36,727 nucleotides of DNA from Desulfobacula sp. (lineage in GTDB: Bacteria > Desulfobacterota > Desulfobacteria > Desulfobacterales > Desulfobacteraceae), in contig JAAUSZ010000016.1 of NCBI GenBank assembly GCA_012031875.1, positions 1 through 36,727 on the forward strand, in the 5' to 3' direction. The translations under genes and the position numbers were made by a program. Positions 8,176 through 17,514 of this stretch are shown here, in pieces (position 1 is the stretch's first letter; each line of letters begins with the position of its first letter). The notes under the pieces were generated by a model. The model saw nothing but the letters and a program-made list of their open reading frames with translations. It was not told the origin of the DNA and ran no database searches.

Positions 8176-8225
8176 AGTATATCCCCAATGGAAATATTTT
8201 TTTGAGGCTTTTACGGAGGATTAAA

Positions 8226-8525
8226 ATGGAAATGAATAGTTTTCAGGAAGAACTTAAAAAAGGCGTCACATTGATGGATTTTAACGCGCCCTGGTGTGCA
8301 CCCTGCAGGGCCCAGGAGCCGGTCATTAAAAAATTAACAAGTCTGTACCGGGATCGCGCCGCCATAATCGAAATCAATATTGACGAGCATCAACTATTGG
8401 CCACGGAATTCGGAGTTCAAAGCATTCCCACGCTCATTATTTTCAAGGAGGGCAAGGAAATGAAACGTTTTGTGGGTCTTCAAACCGAAGAGGCAATTGC
8501 CGAAAATTTGGATAACCTATTATAA
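8226..8525 (+). CDS. Thioredoxin-family protein
   Basis: A 99-residue cytoplasmic thioredoxin fold with the redox motif WCAPC (Cys24, Cys27) and the cis-proline loop QSIPT (Pro68). Canonical thioredoxin has WCGPC, so redox potential or partners may differ. The frame is open from 8202, but GGAGGA five bases before the ATG at 8226 sets the start, and the protein then begins as thioredoxins do. It is the first gene of a likely unit with the 59-aa Cys-rich protein and the transporter at 8746. No signal peptide is visible. Confidence 0.93.
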   Translation: MEMNSFQEELKKGVTLMDFNAPWCAPCRAQEPVIKKLTSLYRDRAAIIEINIDEHQLLATEFGVQSIPTLIIFKEGKEMKRFVGLQTEEAIAENLDNLL

Positions 8526-8554
8526 TAACAGAATCAACCGCATGGGAGATTAGT

Positions 8555-8734
8555 ATGGGCAAGTGTATCCATCACCCTGACCTTGAAACCGGCTATATCT
8601 GCATGAAACACAATATTTATCTTTGTGAAGAATGTCTGGAATGCCGTGACCCTGACCTGTATTGCAAATTCAGACCCTCCTGCCCTATTTATTTTATTTC
8701 CAGAAAAGGGTTTAAAGAGCCTGAACCAAATTAG
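8555..8734 (+). CDS. Small Cys-rich protein (59 aa), probable metal-binding
   Basis: Starts MGKCIHHPDLETGYICMKH and contains seven cysteines in 59 residues (4, 16, 24, 27, 30, 37, 43), including CEECLEC, plus an early His pair. Such CxxC arrays usually bind zinc or an FeS cluster. A possible GGGAG lies about seven bases before the ATG. It fits tightly between the thioredoxin gene (29-bp gap) and the transporter (11-bp gap), so the three are probably co-translated. I recall similar small proteins of unknown function in sulfate reducers but cannot name a family. Confidence 0.7.
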   Translation: MGKCIHHPDLETGYICMKHNIYLCEECLECRDPDLYCKFRPSCPIYFISRKGFKEPEPN

Positions 8735-8745
8735 AGGAGTCAATC

Positions 8746-9789
8746 ATGTGGAAATTTCTTGGCACCATCACAAAACACCTGACCATTGCCATTCCCGCCA
8801 TGATGGCAGCCGGGTTTCTTTTCGGGGTTATATTTGATTCATCATTTTTAAAAGGATTTATCATTCCCTTTACCTTTCTCATGGTCTATCCCATGATGGT
8901 CAACCTGAATATTCAAAAGGTATTTGAAGGCGGCGACCTGAAAGCCCAGGTGCTAACCCAGGTCATTAATTTTGGAATCATTCCCTTCCTTGCCTATTTT
9001 GTCGGGCTTATATTTTTTAAATCCGACCCTTATATGGCCCTGGGGCTCCTCTTGGCAGGGCTTGTTCCCACAAGCGGCATGACGATCTCATGGACGGGTT
9101 TTGCAAAGGGGAACCTTGAGGCAGCGGTCAAGATGACCGTCATAGGACTCGCATTAGGGTCTGTCGCCACCCCGTTTTATGTAAAATTTCTCATGGGTGC
9201 GTCCATAGAAATCAATTTTATTAAAGTCATGCAGCAAATTGTCATCATTGTTTTTATCCCCATGATCGCGGGTTTTCTCACACGGAAATTCCTGGTCAAA
9301 AAATATGGGCAGAAAGGATTCAAAGAAAATATCGGTCCGAAATTTCCAGCCATTTCGACCCTGGGCGTCATCGGTATCGTCTTTATTGCCATGGCGTTAA
9401 AAGCAAGGGGCATCGCGGCCTCTCCGGGTTTGCCAGCCTATATACTGGTTCCGCTGCTCATAATTTATTCCTTTAATTATGTTTTGAGCAGTGTGGTGGG
9501 GAAACTGTTTCTGTCCAGGGGGGATGCCATTGCCCTTGTATATGGATCCGTCATGCGGAATTTATCCATTGCACTGGCCGTTGCCATCAATGCCTTTGGC
9601 AAAGAAGGCGCAAGCGCTGCACTGGTGGTGGCCCTTGCCTATATTATTCAGGTTCAGTCTGCCGCATGGTATGTAAAATTCACGGATAAGATTTTTGGTT
9701 TGCCGGAACCGCAAATGCAGGCTCCGCTCTCTTCCTCTGATCGTTTTGTTGGAAATGAAGAAAAGGCCCCCATTCAGGAGGGAAGATAA
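8746..9789 (+). CDS. ACR3/BASS-superfamily membrane transporter
   Basis: A 347-residue integral membrane protein with about ten hydrophobic segments, of the bile acid:sodium symporter / arsenite exporter (ACR3) superfamily. The second segment FLMVYPMMVNL is close to the ACR3 signature, and the fourth region GLVPTSGMTISWTGFAKGN corresponds to the ACR3 substrate loop. The conserved Cys that ACR3 arsenite exporters carry in that loop (ARCIAMV) is absent here, so arsenite transport is not assured. GAGG lies upstream of the ATG. No arsR or arsC neighbour is present; context is thioredoxin and a Cys-rich protein. The last 30 residues form a soluble tail. Confidence 0.85.
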   Translation: MWKFLGTITKHLTIAIPAMMAAGFLFGVIFDSSFLKGFIIPFTFLMVYPMMVNLNIQKVFEGGDLKAQVLTQVINFGIIPFLAYFVGLIFFKSDPYMALGLLLAGLVPTSGMTISWTGFAKGNLEAAVKMTVIGLALGSVATPFYVKFLMGASIEINFIKVMQQIVIIVFIPMIAGFLTRKFLVKKYGQKGFKENIGPKFPAISTLGVIGIVFIAMALKARGIAASPGLPAYILVPLLIIYSFNYVLSSVVGKLFLSRGDAIALVYGSVMRNLSIALAVAINAFGKEGASAALVVALAYIIQVQSAAWYVKFTDKIFGLPEPQMQAPLSSSDRFVGNEEKAPIQEGR

Positions 9790-9810
9790 TTTTCCTGCCG
9801 GATTTATTCT

Positions 9811-9875
9811 GGTCATTTGATCATAATTTTTCTTGACAACCCCAAGGCGCTTTATTATATTATGATCAAATGACC
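9811..9875 (+). promoter_or_regulatory. Sigma-70 promoter enclosed by a 17-bp inverted repeat
   Basis: GGTCATTTGATCATAAT (9811-9827) is repeated in perfect inverted form at 9859-9875. Between and over the arms lies TTGACA (9833-9838), 17 bp, TATATT (9856-9861). One arm sits just upstream of -35 and the other overlaps and follows -10, the arrangement of a double operator. The DUF134 gene starts 33 bp downstream, so autoregulation by that protein is likely (inference). Confidence 0.7.
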
Positions 9876-9907
9876 ATAATGCTTTTCATTCAAACAAAGG
9901 ACAATGA

Positions 9908-10267
9908 ATGCCCAGACCCAAAAGATTAAGATGCATCATGGCCCCTCCGGCCATCAAAGAATTCAGGCCGGATAATGATGACAACAAAGGGGAAGCCACC
10001 TTGAGCCTTGAGGAATTTGAAGCCATCCGGCACATTGATTATGAAGGTCTGGACCAGAGTCAGGCCGCGGAAATCATGAATGTCTCCCGGCAGACCGTTG
10101 GAAGAATTCTCAGATCCGGCCGGTACACCCTTTCGTCTGCCCTGGTGAACGGGCTTCGGCTCAAACTGGAGGGCGGCTGTTATACCATGGGAGGCCTGGG
10201 GCATGGACACGGCCCCCACGGCAGGCGGCACGGCCGGCAAGGATGCGGCAGAGGAAAAATAAGCTGA
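9908..10267 (+). CDS. DUF134 (UPF0251) predicted DNA-binding protein
   Basis: A 119-residue protein starting MPRPKRLRCI with a sigma-70 region 4-like helix-turn-helix at about residues 50-80 (LDQSQAAEIMNVSRQTVGRIL). The C-terminus is rich in His and Gly (GHGHGPHGRRHGRQGCGRG), a possible metal-binding tail. DUF134 proteins commonly sit beside FeMo-cofactor-like (NifX/NifB-type) and DUF5320 proteins in anaerobes; here the next gene is DUF5320. AAGGA lies upstream of the ATG. The inverted repeat around its promoter suggests it represses or activates its own transcription. Confidence 0.88.
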   Translation: MPRPKRLRCIMAPPAIKEFRPDNDDNKGEATLSLEEFEAIRHIDYEGLDQSQAAEIMNVSRQTVGRILRSGRYTLSSALVNGLRLKLEGGCYTMGGLGHGHGPHGRRHGRQGCGRGKIS

Positions 10268-10326
10268 ATCCGTTGGGGTATTCCGTCATGGAATACCTTT
10301 TTACCATAAAAAAAGGAGGAAATATC

Positions 10327-10647
10327 ATGCCAGGATTAAATCAAAGAGGTCCCATGAATGACGGACCGATGACCGGCAGAAGAAAAGGTCTCTGCGCGGG
10401 GAGCGCTGCAGCAGGCCAGGGATTTGTCGGCGGCTATGGAATGGGCGGAGGTTTCAGAAGAAGCTGCCGGGCAGCCGCATGGGGAGGCGGCCGGGGAATA
10501 GGCCGGGGTGGGAATTTCAGCGCTTGGGCCGGGCCGTCTCCCTTAGTCTCAAGCCAGACCATTCTGCAGAACAGGGCCAGTATGCTTGAAGCCGAACTTG
10601 CTGAAATTAAGAACCAGTTGAATAAACAATCTGAATCCGGGGAATAG
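10327..10647 (+). CDS. DUF5320 family Gly/Arg-rich protein
   Basis: A 106-residue protein beginning MPGLNQRGPMNDGPMTGRRKGLC, typical of DUF5320, followed by a Gly/Arg/Ala-rich low-complexity middle and a C-terminal coiled coil (QNRASMLEAELAEIKNQL). The frame is open from 10243, but GGAGG eight bases before the ATG at 10327 and the family N-terminus fix the start. It is co-transcribed with DUF134. Function unknown; the family is usually found near nitrogenase-cofactor-like proteins, none of which is in this window. Confidence 0.82.
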   Translation: MPGLNQRGPMNDGPMTGRRKGLCAGSAAAGQGFVGGYGMGGGFRRSCRAAAWGGGRGIGRGGNFSAWAGPSPLVSSQTILQNRASMLEAELAEIKNQLNKQSESGE

Positions 10648-10725: not shown

Positions 10726-12750
10726 TTATTTGTTATCTTTATATCCCATGGGCAGTTTTTTAAACCGGCCGCCGTATATGATGGGATCGCCCTTATACCC
10801 CAAGGCCTTAAAATTAATATAATCGGTTTTATCAATGAGATGTTCCACATCCCTTCCCTGGGATTTCATAAGGAAAAATCCGTTCCCTTATGGGCCACCT
10901 TTTGAAATCCACTTCCCGGCTGTCCTGATGGCAGCGGTTACAGGTCTTGTCGCCCTTCAGGCTGTCGTGGCACTGAACACAGGACAGGGCCATATTGGCC
11001 GGCATGACCTCGTGTTCCACACGCCAGTACATCCAGGTTTCCTTCCATTTGTAAGCGCCGCTGTATTCAAGCCCGGCAGCCTTCATGCCGTCCTGAAAGG
11101 ATTTTTCCCAGTCCAGGACCTTCCAGTAGGCCGTGGTGTCCTCCTTATCCCGGGGATACAGATGGGGGATAATAAAATATCCATGTTCCGCATCAATGGG
11201 CTGGATGGCCTTCATGATCTTAAAGGGGGTGATTTTGGAGCCGGGATCCTTAATGGAGCCGACGGGTTCGGTCAGGTTGATGATCTCCGCATTGAGGTTG
11301 ACCTTATCCCCGATCAATACCCGGTTCATATAGCCTGAACTCCAGGCATAATCCGGGACGGCCGACTCTTCCCATTTAAACTCGCCCTTCTGCCAGTTAT
11401 AATCCGGCTCTCCATATTTATCCTTTTTGGGCTTGCGTTCCTTATCCCCGGCCTTGGACCAGTCCCACCAGGTCTTGGTGGGTTTGCACTTGGCAAATAC
11501 CGGCGAATGGCAGACATTGCAGTCCAGGGTTTTGGAATGGGCATTCAGGTGATGGTCCAGAAGACCGCCGCTGTAATGGGAGGATTCGGAATGGCACTGC
11601 ACACAGGTCACGGCTGCTTCGGCCACGGGAACGGAGGAACTCCGGCCCGCAATCTTGTGGTTCCGGGTTTTATGGCATTCGGCGCAGTCAAAATCATAAC
11701 CGCCCATGTGAATATCGCAGTTCCGGTCCGGCTCAAGCAATTGCCGGGACATATCCGCGTGTTTGATGGCATCTCCGCCGCCGCCGTTAAAATGGCAGGC
11801 CCCGCAACTGGCCCGGCTGGAATGGCCGACATTCTGGGCCACCCGTTTTAAATCCACCTCTTTGGCCGGGAAACCTGCTCCCGGAGGCGGGGGGTCTTTT
11901 TATAGGTCCCGGTGGTGTCATGGCACACCAGGCAGTCCATTCTGGTTTTGTCCGTAAAATCAAAGGATGCATCTTTCCAGCCGTATCCTGCATGACAGGT
12001 TGTGCAACGAGCCTCGTTGCTGATGGGGCTGATTCAGAAATTATTCAGGGCCGTGGTGCCCTTGCCGTGCATGATATCCTTTCGATGTCCCGTGGTATAG
12101 GGTGAAGGCCCTTTCCAGAGCCAGTGGGCCGTGGTCAGCATATCCGTTGCCTGGGCGTCGTGGCACCGCAGGCATTCCTTGGTAACCTGGATTGGATCGG
12201 CATTATCGGCCAGCTTCACCAGTTCCTTATGATCCGGGACGTTCTGGAGATGGCATCCCTTACAGTCCGTGGGTCCCTTGCCCTCTGCCTGGTGGCATTC
12301 CATGCATTGCTGATGGTAAGCGGCCTTGAGGCCGATCCGTTCCGGATGATCCGGGTTAAAGGAGTCCTGGTGGCAGGCCGAGCACCGGGTGGTTTCCAGG
12401 GCATTTTCGTCTTTGGGACGAAAATGGTGGCAGATGCTGCAATCATTGGCCAGGGCCGCATGCCGTTTATGGGCAAACCGGACCGGCTCATACTGGTCTT
12501 CCCTTGATTTGATGACGGGGCTGTCCAGAAGAAAATAGACATCGGTTACATCCTTGATGGAAATCCCGGCATCAATGAGACAGGTCCTTCTGTTCACAAT
12601 GCAGTCATCCTTGTATTCCTTGACAAAGGGAACCGCCTCTTTGGCTCTTTGAATTGCTTTTTCCTGGTCCGGGGCCTTCCAGACCTCCGCAAGGCCCGGG
12701 GAAGCCGCTATTATCAGGAACCCGGCAAATAAAAATATTTTTTTCATCAT
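10726..12750 (-). CDS. 13-haem OTR-like periplasmic cytochrome c with in-frame UGA (putative selenocysteine)
   Basis: A Sec signal peptide ([16 protein letters not shown]...GLA) leads a periplasmic multihaem protein of about 674 residues. Five CxxCH motifs precede and eight follow an in-frame UGA at 12036-12034 (residue 239), in the context ALNNF-UGA-ISPISNEARCTTCHAGYGW. The part from the fifth haem on resembles octahaem tetrathionate reductase (OTR)-type cytochromes; the first four haems, with FAHKRH...CSICH, look like a cytochrome c3/c7-type addition. A perfect 7-bp hairpin follows the UGA at SECIS distance. Two homopolymer indels must be corrected: one G missing in 11889-11894 and one A extra in 10874-10878; the C-terminus then ends ...ALGYKGDPIIYGG...MGYKDNK at 10726. 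GGAGG and an ATGA overlap with the NrfD gene support the start. It probably takes electrons from the NrfD/FeS pair. Substrate unknown: tetrathionate, other sulfur or nitrogen compounds, or an electron conduit. Confidence 0.85.
12004..12020 (-). other. Putative bacterial SECIS hairpin in the multihaem cytochrome mRNA
   Basis: On the minus strand GCAACGA-GGC-TCGTTGC forms a perfect 7-bp stem with a GGC loop, beginning 14 nt after the UGA; the loop Gs are 21-22 nt from it. Bacterial SECIS elements bound by SelB need a short apical stem with G in the loop at roughly this distance. Confidence 0.7.
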
Positions 12751-13949
12751 GACGATACCTCCTTGGATTCCTGAAGAATCGGCAAATAGGTCACAGCAAA
12801 TCGATAGATAAACATCAGTGTGGCAATCAGTCCCAGGGTTACCAGGATTTCACCCGGCGCCGGAAAATAGGTGTTTTCCGCCAGGGGCGGTTTATATCCG
12901 ACAATAAACACATTGATCCGGTTCAGCACCACGCCGCCGACAATCAGGGCCGCCGCCGTAAAAATCCCTTTCCTGGACTTTCTGACCCGTTCAAACAGCA
13001 GCATGATCCAGGGGATCATGACCCCGAACAGGATTTCAATAATAAAGGAATTGGTCTGGTGGGTTCCGTCCAGAAGATAGACATAGGTGCCCCGGATGGC
13101 CATGTCCCCCAGTTTCAAAACCATATAGATGCCCAGAAGAAAAATGGTGATCCGGGTTAAGGGGGTCAGGATGCCCATTTCGTCATCCAGCTTGAATGAG
13201 GATGTCGCAAGGGTGGTTTCAAACACCACCATGGGATAGCCCACGGCAAAGGCGGAGGTCAGGAACAAAAGCGGCAGGATCGGGGTATACCAGAGGGGAT
13301 GGAGCTTGGTGGGCGCCACCAGCATGAGGGAGCCGAGGCTGGACTGGTGCATGCAGGACAGGACCACGCCCAGGATAATGAAAATCCACATGATTTTTTC
13401 CAGGATGGCGTCCCCGATCTTCAGGATGCCGTCCACCAGGCTGTTGAGACCGGACAACAAACCCGGCAGATGGACCCTGCCCTTGAACTGTTCCGCAATG
13501 ATGGGAAAAAATTCAATGTACAACACGTTCAGATACACCATCACGCACATAGCCACTTCAAAGAGGACCGAATTGGTATTCCAGTAAAACATGGGTTTCC
13601 AGATGGCCCAGGACCGTCCGATATCCACCAGAAGCCCTAGCACCACAAAGGTATATCCCAGGGCCGCCGTCAAAAGCGCCGGCCTGGTGACGGGTTCATA
13701 ATAATGCCGTCCGAAGATATGGGCCAGGGCTGCCGTGGTAAACCCGCCGGCGGCCAGAGCCACTCCCGTGGCCACATCCACGCCCACCCAGAGTCCCCAG
13801 GGCCGGGCATTGGAAAGATTGGTGACATAGCCGATGCCTCCGGTAAATCTGGCAATAATGGAAAGGGCGCCGGCCGCCATGAACACCGCCATGACCATCA
13901 CGCCCGGGGTCCAGAATTTACGGTTCAATGGGCTTGGTTTATGCGTCAT
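12747..13949 (-). CDS. NrfD/PsrC/HybB-type membrane subunit
   Basis: A 400-residue protein with about ten hydrophobic segments, of the NrfD family that exchanges electrons between the menaquinone pool and a periplasmic FeS subunit. Its length and the charged loops between segments (for example [21 protein letters not shown] and [12 protein letters not shown]) resemble HybB and DsrP. No haem ligation motif is expected and none is seen. GGAGG precedes the ATG; the start overlaps the FeS gene by 11 bp and the stop overlaps the cytochrome start (ATGA), so the three are translationally coupled and probably form one quinone-linked complex. Confidence 0.93.
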
Positions 13950-14862
13950 CAGGCCCCTCCTTTCTGTTTTGAATTATCCTTGCGCTGTTGGATTTTGCCA
14001 TAAATGCCCCGAGCACCCCGAAAAGGACGAGGGGGGACCACAGATAGCTGAAGAGTGAATGCTGAAGGGTTTCGGACAGTTTGGGCGAAGGCGCTTCCGG
14101 CAGAACCGGTAGGTTCACCTGGGTAAAGGGCACCGAGGAAATATAGAGCCAGGAGGTTCCGCCCACTTCTTTTTCCCCGTATACATGCTGGATGTACTGG
14201 CCCGGATTTTCCTTAAGCCGCTGATGAGCCAGGTTTAAGACCGTGCTTCGCCGGCCGAAGGTCAGGGCCTCCGTGGGACAGATGGTCACGCATCCGGGAA
14301 GCCCCCCGTCTTTGACGATTCTGTCATGGCAGAAGGTGCATTTCATGATCCTGGGGGTAATGGGGTCATGGTATTCATAGGCCGGGATCTCAAAGGGGCA
14401 GGCCACCATGCAATACCGGCACCCGATGCATTTTTCCACATCATAATGAACGGCCCCGGTCTCATCCTTGGTCAGGGCGCCCACAATACAGGCCGATACA
14501 CAGGCCGGGTCCTGGCAATGCATGCACTGAACCTTGGCGTAGGTGGGCAAGGGTTTGTCAAAGCTGTCCAGTTTGCCGGTAAAATACCGGTTGACCACGG
14601 TATAGGCCTTGTCATCGGGCCGGCGCTTTTTTTCAAATATGGTACATTGACAATTGGGTCTTTCCGGCGCCGGCAGGCTGTTTACCTTGCTGCAGGCTTC
14701 TTCACATTTGCGGCAGCCCACGCACCGGGTCAGGTCCACCAGGCACCCGTAAGGGTCCGGTGGGGCCTTGGACTCCCAGGCCTGAGCCGATGGGGCCGCC
14801 CCGGCCACCGTGGCCCCCGCCGCTCCCAGGAATTTAAAAAAACTTCGTCTTGTCAGTTTCAT
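13939..14862 (-). CDS. Tat-exported 4Fe-4S ferredoxin-like subunit (HybA/DsrO type)
   Basis: A 307-residue protein with a twin-arginine signal ([19 protein letters not shown]), then 4Fe-4S binding blocks: [35 protein letters not shown] with CPF, and CTFCHD...CVTIC. This is the HybA/PsrB/DsrO arrangement, usually carrying four clusters. A C-terminal hydrophobic helix ([19 protein letters not shown]) would anchor it at the periplasmic face. GGGAG lies six bases before the ATG. It follows PrxU by 21 bp and overlaps the NrfD-type gene, with which it should form an electron-transfer pair feeding or draining the multihaem cytochrome. Confidence 0.94.
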
Positions 14863-14883: not shown

Positions 14884-15492
14884 TCAATCAAAAGCCATTT
14901 CGGTTTTCCATTCTTTCCAGACATTGCCCACCAGGTCCGGCCCCGGAGAAAGGGTCTTTTTGCCCGGTCTCCAGCCGGAAGGGGTCGCCTGGGTCCCCTT
15001 GGATTCCCTGACCCGTTGAAAGGCCTGGACCTGTCGCAGGCTTTCCAGGATATTTCTTCCCACGGGCGGGGTCAGGACCTCAAACCCCTGGACAATACCG
15101 TCGGGATCAATAATGAATCTGCCCCGGGTTTCCACCCCGGCGTCCTCGTCATAAATGCCGTAGACCTTTCCCACCCGGCCCCCGGCGTCGGACAACATGG
15201 CATAGGGAACCCCGCCCTTGACCATTTTCGAGAGTTCATGGTCGTTCCACATTTTATGGACAAAGATGCTGTCAATGCTCATGGACAGGATTTCAACCCC
15301 CAGGCCCTTGAACTCGTTATATTTTTCAGCAACTGCTGAAATTTCAGTGGCTCAGACAAAGGTGAAATCTCCGGGATAAAAACACAGCAGCACCCATTTG
15401 CCCAAATGATCTGATAATGTGACATTCACAAATTTTCCCTGGTGATACCCCGGTGCAGTAAAATCCGGGGCTTTTTTGCCGACTTGAATCAT
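14884..15492 (-). CDS. prxU: Selenocysteine peroxiredoxin (PrxU)
   Basis: AhpC/2-Cys-Prx-fold peroxidase of 202 residues. The peroxidatic site reads PGDFTFV-UGA-ATE, so Sec (residue 47) stands where other peroxiredoxins have FTFVCPTE. The frame continues uninterrupted past the UGA to 14884. The C-terminal region [13 protein letters not shown] corresponds to VCPANW of 2-Cys enzymes but lacks the resolving Cys; Cys37 is the only Cys. It should therefore recycle through an external thiol. AAGGAG six bases before the ATG at 15492 supports this start. The frame is also open upstream to an ATG at 15603 with its own GGAGG, giving a 37-residue extension that I think is not part of the enzyme or is a separate short peptide. 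A hairpin after the UGA fits a SECIS. Selenocysteine Prx is known from anaerobes such as Eubacterium acidaminophilum. Confidence 0.93.
15324..15341 (-). other. Putative bacterial SECIS hairpin in the prxU mRNA
   Basis: On the minus strand TTTCAGC-AGTT-GCTGAAA forms a perfect 7-bp stem starting 11 nt after the UGA (15354-15352), with the loop G 19 nt from the UGA. Position and loop G fit a SelB-dependent SECIS. Confidence 0.72.
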
Positions 15493-15599
15493 GGCTTTCT
15501 CCTTTTTGGGTTCTGAAATCCGGATGGATGTTTCTTCAGGGGCTTCTCCGCCTACCGGTCCGCCGGTGGGGCGGGCGCACCCGGCCTTTATCTCTTCCG

Positions 15600-15872
15600 T
15601 CATGGCGCCTCCTTCTGGGTTGATTTTTCATCCGTTTTAATATTTTTGCCTTTTTTAATGCCAAGGCAGATACAATCCGCCTTTCTTTTTTTATAAACCA
15701 CGTCATCACTGGACTTTTTGATGATAATCATCAGATCCGCCACCACGTCCGTGTCGGTCAGAAGAACTTCCAGCACCTCGCCTTTTTTTATGGAAGCCAG
15801 GCAGCTCTTGCATTTGAGCAGGTTCAGCGGGGAGATCACACCCCTCAAATCCAATATATGGGTGGTTGTCAT
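15600..15872 (-). CDS. TusA/SirA-like protein with Ser at the catalytic Cys position
   Basis: A 90-residue protein with the TusA-family opening [19 protein letters not shown] and the following beta-strand [14 protein letters not shown]. Family members have a CPxP motif with a sulfur-carrying Cys; here the motif reads ISPLN, with Ser14 in place of that Cys. Cysteines occur instead at 21, 24, 67 and 69, so a shifted thiol site is possible. Its stop overlaps an ATG (ATGA at 15600-15603) preceding prxU. It is the first gene after the sigma-54 promoter, so it is probably expressed with PrxU and the respiratory module, perhaps as sulfur carrier or redox partner (inference). Confidence 0.8.
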
Positions 15873-16091: not shown

Positions 16092-16119
16092 CCTTGCCCA
16101 TGATAAATGGAGGCGATTG

Positions 16120-17514
16120 ATGAACGATCATGAAATGAATATTTTCTGGAAAAAAATTGTCAATACCATTAACGACGGGCTCATGTTTGTCGGCCCAGAA
16201 GGTTCCATCCTGATGGTGAACAAGGCCTTTGAAGCGCTGACCGGCTATACTTCAAACGAGGCCATCGGCATGTCCTGTGATATGCTGGGCTGCGACGCCT
16301 GTGAGCATACCCGGGCAAGCAAGGCCGAATCCTGGTGCAAATTATTTGAACCTGGCCGGCAGGACATGAAAAAATGCCGGTGCCAGGTCAGGCGAAAGGA
16401 CGGCAGTTTCCTGCCGGTGCTGAAAAATGCGTCCATTCTATGGGATGAAACCCATACCGCCCTGGGCGTGGTTGAAACCCTGACCGATATTTCCGAATTG
16501 ATCCGGCTGGATGAAAAGCTCCATATCCTGACCCGGCAATGCGATATTGAAACGGATTTCTTTGGCATGGTGGGCAAATCGCCGGTGATGCTCAATGTCT
16601 TCGAGATGGTTCGAAGGGCTGCCCAAAGCCGGGCCCCGGTCATCATCCTGGGGGAAAGCGGAACCGGAAAGGAGCTGGTGGCCAATGCCATCCATTTGTG
16701 CGGCTCCAGGAAAAACGGACCCTTTATCCAGCTCAATTGCGCCGCCTTAAATGAAGCCGTGCTTGAAAGCGAGCTGTTCGGCCATGCCAAGGGGGCTTTT
16801 ACCGGCGCTTACAACAACCGCATCGGCCGGTTTGAGGCGGCCAACCAGGGGGATTTCTTTTTGGATGAAATCGGGGACATTCCCATGTCCATACAGACCA
16901 AACTCCTGCGGGTCCTTGAATCCGGCCGGTTTGAAAGAGTGGGGGATATCTTGCCGGTCCATGTGGATGTGAGGATCATTACCGCCACCAACAAAGACCT
17001 GGATGAACTCATCAGAAAAAGCGAATTCCGGCAGGATCTGTTCTTCAGGATCAATGTCATCCCCATCCTTCTGCCGCCCCTGAGGGACAGAAAAGAAGAC
17101 CTTCCGCTGCTCATCAATGCCTTTATCCGGCACCTGAATATCAAAACCGGAAAGCGCATTCAAGGCCTGAGCCATGACGCCATGGAGGCTGTCATGGACT
17201 ATGCCTGGCCCGGCAATATCCGGGAGCTGAAGAACGCCCTTGAATACGCCTTTGTCACCACGGACGGCTCCCTCATCCAATGGGCCCATTTACCCAAAAA
17301 AATCAGCGGACAGCAAAACATCTGCCCCCCCCGGGATTCGCTCATTTCCGCGGATCCCCCGGTCCCGGATGAAAAATCCGAGCTGATCCGGGCCCTCCGG
17401 GAAACCAAAGGCAACCAGTCCCGGGCGGCCCGGATTCTGAACATCAACCGGGTAACGGTCTGGAACCGCATGAAAAAATACGGCATTGACCTGAAAACCC
17501 TCACGCCCGTGTAA
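16120..17514 (+). CDS. PAS-domain sigma-54 activator with Cys cluster (EBP2)
   Basis: A 464-residue enhancer-binding protein paralogous to EBP1: PAS domain (about 8-130), AAA+ domain with Walker A GESGTGK (178-184), GAFTGA loop and Walker B FFLDE, and a C-terminal Fis-type HTH (NQSRAARILNINRVTVWNRM). Cysteines at 53, 58, 61, 73 and 86 reproduce the spacing of EBP1 exactly, with an extra Cys88. The frame is open from a TTG at 16117, but GGAGG six bases before the ATG at 16120 fixes the start. It is divergent from the TusA-like/prxU/cytochrome operon, whose promoter is sigma-54 type, so it is the obvious activator of that operon. Signal unknown; redox, metal or sulfur species would fit the Cys cluster. 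Confidence 0.94.
   Translation: MNDHEMNIFWKKIVNTINDGLMFVGPEGSILMVNKAFEALTGYTSNEAIGMSCDMLGCDACEHTRASKAESWCKLFEPGRQDMKKCRCQVRRKDGSFLPVLKNASILWDETHTALGVVETLTDISELIRLDEKLHILTRQCDIETDFFGMVGKSPVMLNVFEMVRRAAQSRAPVIILGESGTGKELVANAIHLCGSRKNGPFIQLNCAALNEAVLESELFGHAKGAFTGAYNNRIGRFEAANQGDFFLDEIGDIPMSIQTKLLRVLESGRFERVGDILPVHVDVRIITATNKDLDELIRKSEFRQDLFFRINVIPILLPPLRDRKEDLPLLINAFIRHLNIKTGKRIQGLSHDAMEAVMDYAWPGNIRELKNALEYAFVTTDGSLIQWAHLPKKISGQQNICPPRDSLISADPPVPDEKSELIRALRETKGNQSRAARILNINRVTVWNRMKKYGIDLKTLTPV

Follow-up and report, generated by a model that had tools for sequence, protein, structure and literature searches.

The window, which here denotes the whole stretch of 36,727 nucleotides under analysis, carries on its minus strand a multihaem cytochrome gene (10726–12750) that begins with an ATG at 12750 and that, as assembled here, contains two interrupting indels. 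A signal peptide-like start is followed by a c3-like part (residues ~84–167) and by an OTR domain from residue ~173, and the gene, as read from its sequence, is of the type that encodes a 13-haem cytochrome with a c3-like part fused to an OTR (TIGR04315) domain. Relatives of this form possess 13 CxxCH motifs, eight of which align with the OTR core. The TIGR04315 profile, with its cut-off of 375 bits, matches the window gene in two pieces divided by a frameshift (132.9 and 352.3 bits); intact relatives score 485.8 bits (the 673-residue protein P0001) and 497.3 bits (locus L028).

The frame from the ATG meets a UGA at 12034–12036 (minus strand), around which it reads ALNNF-UGA-ISPISNEARCTTCH. 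This codon, for residue 239, aligns with Cys64 of the Shewanella oneidensis OTR (1sp3) and is read here as selenocysteine (Sec). The same frame then crosses two CxxCH motifs (RCTTCH and CLVCH) before the first frameshift is reached. The CTTCH at 11992–12006 is the binding motif of OTR haem II, the catalytic haem in Shewanella OTR, and the codon at 11762–11764, also on the minus strand, specifies a Lys aligned with Lys153 of 1sp3, which we presume to ligate haem II. The longest ordinary open reading frame at the gene is 238 residues long.

Reading of the minus-strand frame confirmed the claim of an earlier note on this DNA that the frame stays open from the UGA through two more CxxCH motifs. 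In the same note these motifs come before any indel; this holds for the first frameshift (11878–11896), which is absent from five same-genus orthologues, but a second (10885–10905) also interrupts the copy, after which the original frame reaches a stop at 10726. Both indels lie downstream of the UGA and, as assembled, the allele encodes no full protein. They are probably assembly errors, because rpoB (contig C287) and selD (C260) of the same genome are each split across two reading frames as well. Completeness of the assembly is 87.44% and contamination 5.99%. One TGA is also found within the first selD piece.

Gene neighbourhood of the cytochrome

Upstream of the cytochrome gene and on the same strand lie genes for an NrfD-family membrane subunit (PF03916; 12747–13949), a probable quinone-facing partner, and for an HmcB/HybA-like periplasmic Fe-S protein (13939–14862). 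Beyond these, again on the minus strand, are genes for a Sec peroxiredoxin of known type (14884–15603; PF00578, 124.2 bits), with its UGA at 15352–15354 in PGDFTFVU, and for a TusA-like sulfurtransferase-family protein (15600–15872). The motif of Sec peroxiredoxins is given as PxxxTxxU in a 2026 review (PMC13188914). The peroxiredoxin gene has its own SECIS hairpin on the minus strand (UUUCAGC-AGUU-GCUGAAA; 15324–15341), of which L028, L029 and L034 show a version with a compensatory change in one stem pair. The earlier note had described the next gene of the operon as a selenoprotein. A Sec peroxiredoxin, recognizable from both motif and hairpin, is indeed part of the same apparent operon, but it is not adjacent: the gene lies further upstream, separated from the cytochrome by the genes for the HmcB-like and NrfD-like proteins. 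A PAS and sigma-54 activator encoded divergently on the plus strand (16117–17514) is, from its position, a possible regulator. Downstream of the cytochrome, on the opposite strand, the region 8202–10647 (+) holds thioredoxin, SBF-family transporter, DUF134 and DUF5320 genes.

The arrangement recurs among relatives. HmcB-like and NrfD-like genes stand just upstream in 34 of 37 13-haem loci, the other three beginning at a contig edge, and a TusA-like gene is found upstream of the HmcB-like gene at 12 of the 37. A Sec peroxiredoxin is near the cytochrome in four (L015, L028, L029 and L034) of the 80 loci retained as the best of 177 relatives. The HmcB-like and HmcC/NrfD-like partners and the c3-like haem part resemble the Hmc complex, from which the system differs in that the catalytic part is OTR and not HmcA. 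Membership in the Hmc complex itself was rejected, the scores falling below the equivalog cut-offs for both HmcB (347.8 of 420 bits) and HmcC (290.7 of 550 bits).

Cysteine and UGA at one column of the OTR domain

Relatives were collected by a scan of one genome per species, from which the best 80 of 177 confirmed relatives were kept, and by a census of 395 genomes of the phylum, which contributed 30 TGA-bearing OTR matches and further loci. Eleven of 146 hit rows that do not cover the column of the UGA were dropped, and six more were omitted (the window duplicates L099 and L100, and paralogue rows in L116, L149, twice, and L150). At the 129 aligned loci that remain, the codon is TGA in 60, TGC in 56, TGT in 13 and nothing else in any; the ratio of 60 to 69 is not a prevalence, because half of the UGA loci (30 of 60) were fetched for holding a TGA. 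The earlier note expected Cys (NNFC) at this position, and Cys is found there in 69 loci and, as Cys64, in 1sp3. Every one of the 122 full-length rows, a count that omits L098, has Cys or Sec in this column, and no other column outside the eight haem pairs has Cys in more than 50%. The column of Lys153 is similarly constant, with Lys in 126 of the 128 rows that have a letter there and Arg in the other two. L098, in the window's own genome (C62:12997–14325), is a second OTR gene of the Cys form, with NNFC.

In the phylum census, 30 OTR matches above the cut-off, found in 29 of the 69 genomes with such matches, hold exactly one TGA, and all 30 TGAs fall at the Cys/Sec codon; no TAA or TAG occurs in the over-cut-off matches listed. 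A second UGA in L148, at the end of the match (+359), is probably its stop. A census of the order (291 genomes) gave at least 23 matches with one TGA somewhere within the match.

In the named collection, 28 of 29 UGA loci stay open beyond the UGA until a later stop and have a full set of haem motifs, 13 in 25 of them and eight in three; the remaining locus, L022, is frameshifted, as is the window copy. A search of 26 genomes of the window's genus found full-length orthologues with a single TGA in five, 84–100% identical to P0001 and intact apart from the UGA (one is identical to L012), and five others have a relative at 54–57% with Cys at the site. Purifying selection beyond the UGA is strong: in five within-genus pairs dN/dS is 0.05–0.08 after the UGA, compared with 0.04–0.09 before it. 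For the window copy against L012 the values are 0.062 before the UGA, 0.029 in the 48 codons between the UGA and the first frameshift, and 0.043 past that frameshift, with dS near saturation.

These results bear on the reading in which the UGA is a nonsense mutation or a sequencing error and the gene a pseudogene. The two downstream indels in the window copy, and the completeness and contamination of its assembly, speak for such a reading, but the split rpoB and selD genes point to assembly indels, the same codon is TGA at 60 loci, the listed over-cut-off matches contain TGA but neither TAA nor TAG, five same-genus orthologues are intact, and selection acts past the UGA also on the pieces of the window copy. 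This leaves the pseudogene a negligible probability, and we reject it.

For 123 OTR domains a quick tree was computed by maximum likelihood, from an alignment that lacked the columns between the UGA and haem II. It requires eight Cys/Sec changes, of which well-supported branches force at least six; it is the product of a short search without bootstrap, and the loci are partly non-independent, 121 of the 123 rows being different. Six short rows, the frameshifted window among them, and two UGA paralogue rows lie outside it. As judged from this tree, the relatives have exchanged sulfur and selenium at the invariant Cys several times. Two Cys loci, L020 (Desulfospira joergensenii) and L026 (Desulfobacter vibrioformis), are nested in a UGA clade and may be Sec-to-Cys reversions; both keep a Pro that UGA loci lack, the hairpin is not intact in either, and both genomes possess SelB. 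Since a single genus sometimes contains Cys forms as well as Sec forms, the two offer matched pairs for asking why selenium is kept.

The SECIS hairpin and the selenocysteine machinery

Shortly after the UGA, the minus strand can form a SECIS hairpin, GCAACGA-GGC-UCGUUGC (12004–12020), with seven perfect pairs, a 3-nt loop whose Gs are 21 and 22 nt past the UGA, and a folding energy of -9.0 kcal/mol. It codes for the end of a Ser and then N-E-A-R-C, and with this final Cys the haem II motif begins. The rules for bacterial SECIS elements in section 5 of PMC13188914 call for a loop of 3–9 nt, a stem of 4–16 bp, a G in the first two loop positions, a spacing of 16–37 nt and a minimum free energy of -7.5 or lower. 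With its GGC loop, 7 bp, 20 nt and -9.0 kcal/mol, the hairpin falls within all of these, as the earlier note had proposed from its geometry. The energy is unremarkable against shuffled sequence (z -0.19, with 81 of 200 shuffles folding equally well or better), and because of this the case for the hairpin must rest on comparison.

That comparison separates the two forms completely. Each of the 60 UGA loci can form all seven pairs in one or the other of two registers; none of the 69 Cys loci can, their best pairing in either register being six, reached in three. The UGA loci divide into 30 with register A, the form found in the window, and 30 with register B (CUGGUGC-AGGU-GCACCAG, or with AGUU as the loop, and near variants), which codes for N-W-C-R/S-C. 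In a set of 30 UGA loci that counts the window, the identical 17-nt hairpin occurs in 27 and the other three use the other register. The distance between loop and UGA is 20 nt in register A and 24 nt in register B, and these distances and the loop Gs of both registers agree with the bacterial SECIS model of the same section (PMC13188914). In codon usage, residues +6 to +10 (N, E, A, R, C) are each encoded by a single codon in 30 of 30 register-A loci, and for each of the conserved residues +11 to +18 between two and four codons are in use. The hairpins vary so little that covariation is weak: there is one compensatory pair, C-G to U-A in L055 and L147, in register B, which also has one-sided G-U changes (L133 and L137).

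The hairpin appears to be paid for in the protein. Two residues ahead of the haem II motif, 59 of the 69 Cys loci have Pro, whereas the UGA loci have Ala (30) or Cys (30); a G-containing hairpin loop requires Ala or Cys in place of Pro. Since the loop falls on or beside the Pro codon, we read the loss of Pro from the alignment as the protein-side price of the SECIS. A SECIS that overlaps a haem-binding motif is an example of protein and RNA constraints solved together.

The machinery for Sec insertion, named beforehand as a check on the claim, was found in the source genome, which has a tRNA-Sec with a UCA anticodon (75.7 bits), SelA (605.8 bits), SelB (356.4 bits) and SelD, the last split over two frames as noted above. 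SelB scores above the cut-off in 24 of the 28 UGA-form genomes, and was not found above it in the other four, which are draft assemblies, one with a 226-bit partial match. The presence of SelB does not separate UGA genomes from Cys genomes, because it is also over the cut-off in seven of the ten listed genomes with the Cys form only. A changed genetic code or a natural suppressor that reads UGA as another amino acid would fit the alignment, as the position is Cys in relatives and UGA as Cys would serve equally well, but such a reading is scarcely credible and we reject it, because UGA still ends the neighbouring peroxiredoxin gene and the cytochrome gene itself in L014, L016, L017, L019 and L033, the specific tRNA with the UCA anticodon is tRNA-Sec, and a SECIS-type hairpin accompanies each of the 60 UGA genes.

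The candidate selenocysteine cytochrome put forward in the earlier note is thus supported by the Cys/UGA column, by the SECIS, by the Sec machinery and by the Sec peroxiredoxin of known type in its neighbourhood, and from the comparison of sequences we hold it to be nearly certain that codon 12036–12034 specifies Sec. Standard annotation truncates such genes at the UGA.

A proposed role of selenium at the haem II site

In the proposed mechanism, SelB and tRNA-Sec would decode the UGA as Sec, directed by the hairpin within the haem II coding region, and Sec would take the place of the single invariant non-haem Cys of the OTR domain, ten residues before the haem II motif. The selenolate may then be the reactive group, acting together with haem II and the Lys. 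Electrons would pass from quinol to NrfD, to the HmcB-like Fe-S protein, to the c3-like haems, to the OTR haems and finally to haem II with its Sec, and the substrate may be a sulfur or nitrogen oxyanion (tetrathionate-like, or nitrite or hydroxylamine). As a whole, the explanation that the gene encodes a periplasmic 13-haem selenocytochrome, into which SelB and tRNA-Sec insert Sec in place of an invariant Cys, is very probable in our estimate.

The Shewanella enzyme provides the structural reference. The OTR domain aligns with 1sp3 along its length, in two pieces (124.5 and 246.4 bits), in which Cys64, Asp150 and Lys153 match Sec239, an Asp and the Lys of the window protein. In 1sp3 the Cys (NNFC) is likewise followed by ten residues and then the haem II motif; unlike the window form, the Shewanella protein has Cys, eight haems and no c3-like part. 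Cys64 presumably lines the haem II pocket. The putative proximity of residue 239 to haem II is taken from this alignment, because the AlphaFold2 model of P0001 with 11 aligned relatives was too poor (mean pLDDT 37.8, pTM 0.31) and was not used. The second haem, haem II, is described as catalytic in PMC4484225 and PMC11024163, the latter also describing it as Lys-ligated, and tetrathionate, nitrite and hydroxylamine are given there as substrates of Shewanella OTR. No text linking Cys64 with tetrathionate reductase was found in a search of the open-access literature.

One different use of the codon would be as a switch, by which a shortage of selenium yields a 238-residue, five-haem protein with a role of its own and Sec read-through is a minor event. 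The truncated stretch comprises a complete c3-like tetrahaem part and OTR haem I and could carry electrons alone. Against this, the eight-haem UGA forms (L046, L047 and L055) have a single haem motif before the UGA, which makes a useful short product unlikely, and selection after the UGA equals in strength that before it. We consider a switch quite improbable.

The rival with the greatest remaining weight accepts that Sec is incorporated but gives it a structural or protective function, for example against oxidation, and not a catalytic one. It draws on the fact that Cys works in 69 loci and on L020 and L026, which have Cys within the UGA clade although both genomes retain SelB. Set against it are the absolute Cys/Sec invariance at one non-haem Cys column and the location of the residue just ahead of the catalytic haem motif, and on balance we think a purely structural or protective Sec unlikely. 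The alignment somewhat favours Sec as a direct catalytic group beside haem II, and the new active-site chemistry put forward in the earlier note is in this light a hypothesis. By a slight preference, we also suggest a fuller account in which the enzyme is a periplasmic reductase linked to quinol, its Lys-ligated c-type haem has the selenolate as catalytic partner, and Sec was gained repeatedly through the NEARC and NWCRC SECIS designs with loss of the Pro. If this selenolate–haem reading is true, the family would be a natural laboratory for studying how Cys and Sec replace each other at a haem site. In many sulfate-reducing bacteria, Sec very probably occupies the one invariant reactive Cys of a haem enzyme family with an unsettled physiological role.

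The earlier note did not place this family among described selenoproteins, and here it requires correction. TIGR04315 (WP_331457571.1) already appears in a single table row of the 2026 review, as a selenoprotein annotated in GenBank that has one Sec and for which no motif is given (PMC13188914). The row concerns the same family as the window cytochrome and does not state the position of the Sec, and the available part of that review makes no mention of the 13-haem form linked to HmcB and NrfD, of the SECIS registers or of repeated Cys/Sec switching. In searches of the open-access literature no description was found of the Sec position, the two SECIS designs, the recurrent switching or the 13-haem form. 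ExtKL of Geobacter is another known multihaem c-type cytochrome with one Sec (PMC13188914 and PMC5877670). ExtKL differs in being a five-haem protein from another gene cluster, and membership in its family was rejected, as the NCBIfam matches listed for the window pieces and for P0001 do not include NF040886.

A UGA in frame is also found, in YU-APPNTVAGHNWIGIL, at the OTR Cys64 column of a more remote OTR-like multihaem cytochrome, whose score to TIGR04315 (198.8 bits) is below the cut-off of 375. It is represented by L149:1361–2704 (+) and L150:1765–3114 (reverse strand), which are 69% identical to each other and are carried by two of 24 genomes of that family, and from its sequence it is possibly a second type of Sec cytochrome.
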